Of a stretch of 64,000 bases of DNA, positions 20,301-23,300 are shown one piece after another. Under the pieces are notes generated by a model that worked only from the letters and a program-made list of their open reading frames with translations, had not been told where the DNA came from and made no database searches. Position numbers and translations under genes: made by a program. The stretch comes from Lucifuga dentata (lineage: Eukaryota; Chordata; Actinopteri; Ophidiiformes; Bythitidae), in NCBI GenBank assembly GCA_014773175.1, contig VXCM01000306.1, positions 96,001 through 160,000 of the forward strand. Reading direction: 5' to 3'. Each line of letters opens with the position of its first letter. Positions within the stretch are counted from its first letter, which is position 1.

Positions 20301-23300
20301 TGTGCTATCTATCTGCTTCAACCACTGGAGAGGGACAAAGGAGATAGGAACAATGACAAGAAAAGTCCACAGGGTGTCAGCAGAAACATAGTATTTATGA
20401 TCATACAGTGTGGTTATGACTGAGAGGCCTTCCACTGACCTTTTCACACAGAGAGAGCACCGTCCCCGCCTGGATCACTGCTACCTGCTCCTCATTACGT
20501 AGATTCTGCAGAAAAAGCCACAGAGAAGTGATTTGATCTGAGAAGAATTTGTGCCTAGGGTTAAAAAAGCAGCAGGGCTCTTTTTCTTTCTTTCTTTTTT
20601 TTTTTTAAACCAGCATTGTGTTTGAACTCACCCCATTATCTCCCAGAATATCCAGTTTCTTCATCAGCTCAGGAATGACAACATCCTGCACAGAGGTCAA
20701 AAGCAGGCATCGTGTTGACTGTGTGTATGAACATTAAAACTCAACAGTCTAGTGTGTGTACGTATGTGTGTGCGTATAATCACTTTGACCCCCTCCTGGT
20801 GACAGTAGATCTGCAGGGCACTACTGCTGTTCTCAGGAAATGCAGACATGTGGAGGTTAAGGGCAGGAGATCTGCGCTCCCTCTCCTACAGAAATGATAC
20901 AACATGTTAATACCCACATACATATAAGATACCAAACATGAATGACATATACTGATTTTAAATTACAGAATACACGGCGTGAAAAGGGAGGGAATGGAGG
21001 ATTTACTTACACAACACAGACAGAATGGTCAGGATCTGCCAAAATGAGGGAGGTGGGAACCCATAAGGTTAAAATGGAAGAACCAAAGCAAAGGGATAGG
21101 GAGTTTAACAACACATGCTGGAAATCAAGAGTGAAAATGTGATTTCAAATGTAGACACAACCTTTTTTGTCCACATTCAGAATGAACTGCAGTGTAAATA
21201 AATGCTGTATCATCTAGATTCTGAGTGATGTATGATGCATTTACTCCTGTTGCCAAATGCCTTTAAGCCTCTTTGTGGAAGTTTTTAGGTTTTAATAGTA
21301 TATTATATCCTTAACTTTAATAATAAACACAAAATCACAAAGCAGAAAAATAAGAAGACATCCAAACTACAGCATAATTTGTTCTTTGTTGTACCGACTT
21401 CAGCTAATATATTGTAAACAAAACTAAGGACATGCGTGCAAAAATATGAGACAAAATAAACAATAATGGGGTTGGATGGTGAACTTAAATACATTATTTT
21501 ATTAAACAAAAAATTATATTTACAACATTCTTGTTCATCTTTAAGAAAAAAATATTCCAGTACTGCAAAGGGGTATGCACGCAATTACCATGCAAAACAA
21601 GAAAACACAGGTGTAAACATGGAGAACCCAGCAGTGCATGTAAGTATGTGTCTGATCAGTCACTGGATGTAGGTCATGTGATGGGAGTTGAGATTGTTGT
21701 TGTCGCCCCCTGGTGACAGTTTGATGGTGGTACAGTCTCTTACTTCCAGCTCCAGCACCCTGAATTCCAGCAGCTCGTTCTGGTCCCGAGCATCCTGAAC
21801 CTCCGCCTGCAGCCGCAACTCCGCCTGCTGCAATGCACACACCTATGGACACACACACATATTCACAGTCTCATAAGAATCAATATGGCAAACTGACAAT
21901 GCATATTCAGTGATCTGTAAAGTAATCTATGAAACGTGATTGTGGGGAATTCACCGATTAAAAAAAGCAAATAGTGCTTTGCATTGTATGATTACAGTAC
22001 ATGATAATCATCATGCTGATAAAGTGATGTACTTCAGGTGAATAGAATGTAATTCCATTTACCTTCTCATGCAGTTCCTGGTTGGTCCTGAGCAAGTACT
22101 GTTTCTCCTCCACCCATTTGGAGTCCTGCCATAACAACCAGACACACCATCAACAAGAAATACTACTAACAGGCACAAAAGAGGAAGAAGAGAGACAGAT
22201 GATCACTGATGACAGGATGTTATGTGTCAGCAGCACAACCAGCCAACCCAAAGCCTCCCACATTGTGATCCAACATGATATACATGCAAATGCAGACACA
22301 GACAGGAATGGAGTGATAGCAGCACAAATTTATTGATCCACAGAAAGAAAGTTGACTCCCAAGATAACAAAGGAGAAAGAGATGCATTCAAAGTCATCAA
22401 GTGGTCACAGCAACAGCAGGAAGAAAAGACACTGAGCACTGCAACAAAACAAAATACATAGATGGATCAAGCAGTGGAACGTGCAACATGCAGTAAACAC
22501 GCAGTGACCAAAAAAAAAAAAAAAAANAAAAAAAAAAAAAAAAAACCATGGAGAAACTGAAGTATAATGTCTTTTCTGCATTTAAAAAAAATCACTTAAT
22601 CAGTGTTTTCACATTTACAATATGACATATAATTCAATCAAAATTTTGCATATCTATTTATTAAAGTTGTTTCAGCCTCCTTTCTATGCTTGACAGCGCT
22701 GAGAGGCCTGATAAGAAACAAAACCCACAGGAAGGAGAAGCTGAGGCAGATCATGCAGATGCAGAGTTGTGACACCACACAGAGGAAGTGGCATCAAAAG
22801 ATCTTGCGGAAGATCTGGTCGGCATAGTGCCAGCCCAGGAGCAGAGCAGCCAGACAGACATGGAGGAGGGCCACTAAGATCAGGACCAGTAGGCTCCTGT
22901 CCCCCTCCCTTGTCTTTGTTACCTGCCCCCTCTCGGCCAGGGCCTTCTGCAGGTCGGCAATCTTGGCCAAGCAGCTGTTCAGCTCCACCTGCAGCTGCTC
23001 ACGTGTCTGTGGAAGGAAACAAATCAGTGAATGCAGTGCAAATCCGCAATGGCAACGGAGGGACAGATTCCATGTTTTTTTCAGCCTGTGCAAGAGAAAA
23101 CTATAAGGTACTGCGTACTTAAGCAAAATGTAAATCCTAAAAACTCACTGTACCTGAAAGAAATAATACCTAATGTCACAAGCAAGCATTGTTGTATTTA
23201 CACGTTTGCAAAGACAAAAATCTTCATTAAAAGCTGGATGATTTTCAAAGGGGACAGAGAAATGGAATCACAGGTTAACGACACAGTAGTTGTTGCAGCT

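Follow-up and report, generated by a model that had tools for sequence, protein, structure and literature searches.

A conserved intron-encoded end of percomorph jakmip1 predicted to carry a C-terminal membrane anchor

In the bythitid fish Lucifuga dentata (order Ophidiiformes), the reading frame of jakmip1 runs past the splice donor of exon 11 and ends within intron 11 in a short, strongly hydrophobic tail. This tail gives a known gene an alternative terminus that is conserved but has been overlooked. Comparison of sequences from percomorphs (Ophidiiformes, stickleback, pufferfish and others) lends good support to its reading as a conserved protein-coding alternative end. We consider it quite probable that positions 22922-22794 of the window, the whole 64,000-nucleotide stretch analysed, encode such an end and that exon 11, extended into a composite terminal exon, would give rise to a 613-residue, tail-anchored Jakmip1.

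The jakmip1 locus

The minus strand of the window encodes 863 of 863 residues of NCBI protein P0011, as judged by exact 8-residue matches, with coding exons between about 29464 and 17310. The P0011 record is named just 'hypothetical protein', its relatives carry the name jakmip1, and the window gene matches human JAKMIP1 exon by exon. The exon 9 stretch matches the Pfam family JAKMIP_CC3 (PF16034; E 8.2e-16, 58.7 bits). By its sequence, the gene is jakmip1. A jakmip2-like locus and a third paralogue lie at separate loci in the Lucifuga genome.

Two neighbours were seen in the window. On the plus strand, 46867-48363 holds a wolframin exon, with Pfam matches to the wolframin cysteine-rich domain (E 6.8e-34) and the C-terminal OB-fold (E 3.5e-32); WFS1 adjoins JAKMIP1 in mammals as well. 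On the minus strand, a 508-residue open frame at 10422-11948 carries degenerate coiled-coil repeats (LKEERE/LKQERE). It scored over the cut-off of no Pfam family, and belongs to a further long gene for a coiled-coil protein, encoded on the same strand as jakmip1.

An open hydrophobic frame past the exon 11 donor

Exon 11 is bounded by the acceptor TTCCTTCCACAG and the donor CAG/GTAACA, and reading through this donor translates to VTKTREGDRSLLVLILVALLHVCLAALLLGWHYADQIFRKIF before the stop (Table 1). A sequence-only reading of this DNA had predicted a frame open for 42 codons past the donor, a strongly hydrophobic stretch of about 20 residues and an AATAAA about 130 bp past the stop. The frame has that length, its maximum 19-residue Kyte-Doolittle mean is 3.15, and the AATAAA follows the stop by 131 nt. 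The predicted rod lengths were likewise recovered, with 613 residues for the short product and 856 for the long form when the exon 7 boundary is taken from P0011. The description of the residues behind the anchor as polar did not fully hold, as GWHYADQIFRKIF is mixed in character.

As in a composite terminal exon, coding sequence thus crosses the donor to an in-frame stop, and in Lucifuga an AATAAA lies in the intron downstream of it. On a simple composition-based estimate, 0.02 copies of this hexamer are expected per 200 nt; a further one lies inside intron 11 at 22334. GC content falls from 0.56 in the tail to 0.49 in the next 130 nt and 0.36 in the remaining intron; at third codon positions (GC3) it is 0.89 for exon 11 and 0.74 for the tail.

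How often such a frame arises by chance can be gauged from the 1070 GTRA sites on both strands of the window. Read-through stays open for at least 42 codons at 155 of them, reaches a 19-residue hydropathy of at least 2.4 within 60 codons at eight, and reaches 3.15 within that distance at one. A hydrophobic read-through by itself is therefore uncommon yet possible by chance. The tail goes beyond chance because it is conserved in other fish.

Table 1. Features of the jakmip1 3' region in the window (all on the minus strand)
Feature	Position	Strand	Remarks
jakmip1 exon 11	22923..23006	-	84 nt, 28 codons, phase 0; identical in P0011; first part of proposed composite terminal exon
Read-through tail	22794..22922	-	42 codons (22922-22797) and TGA (22796-22794); frame and stop conserved in other fish
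Intron 11	22126..22922	-	797 nt; spliced out in canonical isoforms; exon 12 next in P0011
Predicted membrane helix, LLVLILVALLHVCLAALLL	22836..22892	-	tail residues 11-29; from hydropathy and helix prediction
Short C-terminal flank, GWHYADQIFRKIF	22797..22835	-	positive net charge in almost all relatives
AATAAA, candidate poly(A) signal of short mRNA	22657..22662	-	131 nt past stop codon
Second read-through end, VRDCTTIKLSPGGDNNNLNSHHMTYIQ then stop	21660..21743	-	polar; after exon 13; homologue is the terminus of P0010 and P0013
Known hydrophobic C-terminus of 856-residue form, FLFLFLFFSLAFILWP	17310..17357	-	last coding exon, 48 nt

Relatives of the tail in other fish

A search of 5.8 billion proteins with the tail portion of a model of 596 residues returned 25 proteins at E<=10. 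Among them is P0002, a 592-residue jakmip1 of Gasterosteus aculeatus (UniRef), which matches JAKMIP_CC3 with 182.6 bits and terminates at the homologous stop; its C-terminus is VTKTGDGDRSSRVLLSLALLHVCLAALLLVWRYADQVCRRIR and its tail again has 42 residues. P0001 carries a tail of the same kind, with an extension past the stop position. A profile search for short open reading frames, in which scoring was confined to the 7992 candidates with the most shared words, returned 21 proteins, and all 21 have exon 11 sequence (some its later part alone) followed by the tail. The homologous stop is present in 20 of these; P0034 ends three residues further on. Whole-codon changes give P0035, P0045 and P0046 tails of 40, 44 and 47 residues.

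A third search gave eight proteins, five of them new besides P0001, P0002 and P0010. P0001 and the five new proteins, six longer open reading frames in all, have W at the stop position (6/6), after which the frame runs into the intron; this W is probably the TGA, read under a genetic code in which it is not a stop. As these six, like the short frames that start before exon 11, contain intron sequence, they are genomic and uninformative on expression. The sequence-only reading had named frameshifts or stops in related fish as evidence that would speak against it. Neither appeared: each relative recovered has an open frame, the stop stays in position and lengths differ by whole codons, in protein searches that are biased towards open frames. 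Pattern searches for DNA of other fish gave 27 matches in viral contigs and 43 in contigs of prokaryote genomes, with no relatives in either set.

Fourteen of the 25 proteins skip the tail and pass directly from exon 11 to a later exon, and the Lucifuga annotation P0011 belongs to the models that omit it, with exon 12 following exon 11. The remaining pattern of note is found in nine (eight species: Takifugu, with two proteins, Liparis, Dissostichus, P0007, Sparus, Scophthalmus, Sander and Centroberyx), in which the first 6-35 tail residues are joined to later exons. Such models are what would be seen if the tail optionally lengthened exon 11 as an internal exon, with in-tail donors leading to proteins that continue into exons 12-14 and have no terminus here. 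However, the joins fall at differing tail residues in most species (6, 12, 17, 21, 31, 34 and 35), a scatter that automatic gene models would produce in avoiding a stop. Moreover, an internal extension would not explain why the stop is kept in 20 of 21 short frames and P0002, and as W in all six longer ones, or why the last 11 residues are 63% identical, as described below. We therefore regard an internal extension as unlikely, and favour an alternative terminus.

Conservation follows the tail and its stop

Identity was compared over 16 rows, leaving aside the near-duplicates P0030 and P0032 and the gapped rows P0035 and P0045. Mean pairwise identity was 87% in exon 11 and 75% in the tail; within the tail it was 80% for the linker, 79% for the anchor and 63% for the last 11 residues. 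The intron just upstream of exon 11 (eight codons, ungapped, omitting the final two codons before the exon) showed 13% identity (15 rows, 105 pairs). Past the stop, successive ungapped 8-codon blocks gave 58, 26, 21, 13 and 6% (7 rows), the last block, 33-40 codons past the stop, using 15 of 21 pairs.

These values bear on the possibility that the read-through RNA is a retained-intron or unproductive product, which just lowers canonical mRNA and encodes a peptide without a role. Intron retention is common in general. Nevertheless, a non-functional peptide need not preserve frame, stop and hydrophobicity, the tail is far more similar between species than the adjoining intron, and in Lucifuga a poly(A) signal lies past the stop, all of which makes this explanation improbable, more so than an internal extension.

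The yardstick for the substitutions was random single-base change in Lucifuga codons. With 22 of the 28 tails used, the anchor shows 29 distinct substitutions; 4 of them introduce a residue of the set R, K, D, E, H, Q, N and P, where 10.7 would be expected, a result reached in 10 of 3000 draws with a post hoc split of the tail. Over the whole tail, the 76 substitutions in 24 tails were no more conservative than random (BLOSUM62, 1886/5000 draws; hydropathy, 536/5000 draws), and the linker and the C-terminal end, tested separately, showed no effect in the expected direction. Least probable of all is that the DNA is conserved for a different purpose, for example as an element of splicing or transcription, a structured RNA or an antisense gene, with the open frame as a by-product: the plus strand has open frames too and similarity persists for about 8 codons beyond the stop, but it drops soon after, length differences between species are whole codons, anchor substitutions remain hydrophobic and Rfam gave no match at E<=1 in 22050-23500.

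A predicted tail anchor

The conserved coding end would have the make-up of a tail anchor. A single hydrophobic helix lies in the last ~50 residues with a short segment behind it, and all 29 tails have a hydropathy of 2.38-3.15. By eye, the remainder of the 596-residue model is a polar coiled coil. In an AlphaFold2 model of exon 11 plus tail (22 rows), residues 2-69 of 70 form one helix (mean pLDDT 83.4, pTM 0.40), so that the coiled-coil rod would continue into the membrane helix. The same fragment matches JAKMIP_CC3 with E 3.5e-06 and 27.3 bits, under the family cut-off of 30.2. Searched against Pfam, the tail gave just a sub-threshold PAP2 match (E 0.065), which we read as a hydrophobic coincidence.

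The C-terminal flank has a net charge of +1 to +3 in the rows parsed by script (24 of 29), and of 0 (P0039) to +2 by eye in the other five. Tail anchors with such a basic C-terminal flank suit the endoplasmic reticulum and Golgi or the mitochondrial outer membrane. From its sequence we infer that the tail could insert and work as a membrane anchor, and any organelle and function would likewise be read from the sequence.

A model for the short form and the other ends of the gene

In the model that we propose, the exon 11 donor would at times be left unused, exon 11 would become a composite terminal exon, and cleavage and polyadenylation would take place within intron 11, in Lucifuga probably after the AATAAA at 22662. 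All 37 rows encode T (28), I (6) or K (3) at tail codon 2, from which it can be deduced that the donor lacks G at +5 in each; a donor of this kind may permit skipping part of the time, although by a donor frequency table the Lucifuga exon 11 donor is only the ninth weakest of the gene's 20. At the transcript level, the sole hint of the tail end is the stickleback entry P0002. On this entry, which we take to be an automatic model, use of the tail end in mRNA is likely.

The resulting 613-residue Jakmip1 would retain most of the coiled coil, lose the C-terminal third, and terminate, like tail-anchored proteins, in one hydrophobic helix followed by a short basic C-terminus; in this way the coiled-coil scaffold would be attached to a membrane. 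The read-through form after exon 13 would be soluble. Its end resembles that of the 626-residue human JAKMIP1, which reads through after the equivalent of exon 13. The 856-residue form would use its own hydrophobic FLFLFLFF end. Two acceptors appear to serve its last coding exon, giving FLFLFLFFSLAFILWP in some relatives and HLFFGLNELIVDRHQVLRCSGGK in P0011.

The anchor frame was sought at the paralogues as well. At the jakmip2-like locus (L005), read-through of exon 11 gives VKDLTARDAHTVQLHAQRALH before a stop, with no anchor frame, and at the third paralogue (L006) no exon 11 was found within its 1751 bases up to the contig end. A search of the Lucifuga genome with exon 10 gave no third copy. 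Intron 11 of the jakmip2-like gene (L005:2972-4241) contains, by eye, an apparent inverted repeat near 3170-3250 and 3690-3760, whose shared words include AAAGTCTTTATT and AATAAAGACATTTTT.

We lean towards a wider model in which intronic polyadenylation in percomorphs adds an anchor, so that one gene would supply soluble, tail-anchored and long hydrophobic-ended rods that couple microtubule and kinesin-1 partners to different membranes. As gene models omit the tail or splice part of it onward, similar intron-coded ends may be overlooked elsewhere.

Comparison with known systems

The tail-anchored golgins giantin and golgin-84 consist of a long cytosolic coiled coil and one C-terminal membrane helix. 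The proposed short Jakmip1, known here from sequence alone, would work like them in architecture; its basic C-terminus would fit the mitochondrial outer membrane too.

Within the family, the available text on NECC2/JAKMIP3 describes forms that have a hydrophobic region at the C-terminus and forms that lack it; the region is reported to give integral association with caveolar membranes (PMC3765260). NECC2, like NECC1/JAKMIP2, thus shares with the fish gene both the family and, as far as that text goes, a hydrophobic C-terminal region. In NECC2, the choice is described as splicing within the last exon, with an FLFLFLFF-type end, and the two apparent last-exon acceptors of jakmip1 are like the intra-exonic splicing given there for rat Necc2 exon 21 (PMC3765260). 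The fish jakmip1 tail is different: a longer helix with 11-13 residues behind it, encoded after exon 11. JAKMIP1/Marlin-1 itself, in the part of the report available, is contrasted with NECC1 and NECC2 as having no C-terminal transmembrane domain, and five splice variants (a-e) are cited (PMC2685396). Its short splice forms resemble the fish tail form in ending prematurely at the C-terminus and in coming from the same gene. We know of no short form of JAKMIP1/Marlin-1 with a membrane helix. Among the titles and opening parts of abstracts listed, from a literature collection with few subscription journals, none describes this jakmip1 end.

As to the RNA, composite-type intronic polyadenylation is described as frequent in human immune cells; the donor is unrecognized and the intron is included up to a poly(A) site, usually with AAUAAA or AUUAAA, according to the available portion of the study (PMC5928244). 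The cases described in that portion lose or retain domains, transmembrane domains included (PMC5928244), whereas the fish jakmip1 end would add a transmembrane helix. It would thereby combine the alternative hydrophobic ends of its family with composite intronic polyadenylation. The IgM-type switch shares with our proposal the skipped donor and the intronic poly(A) site; if the proposal is true, fish can switch the Jakmip1 scaffold between soluble and membrane-bound states by choice of poly(A) site, in the reverse direction to the IgM-type switch.
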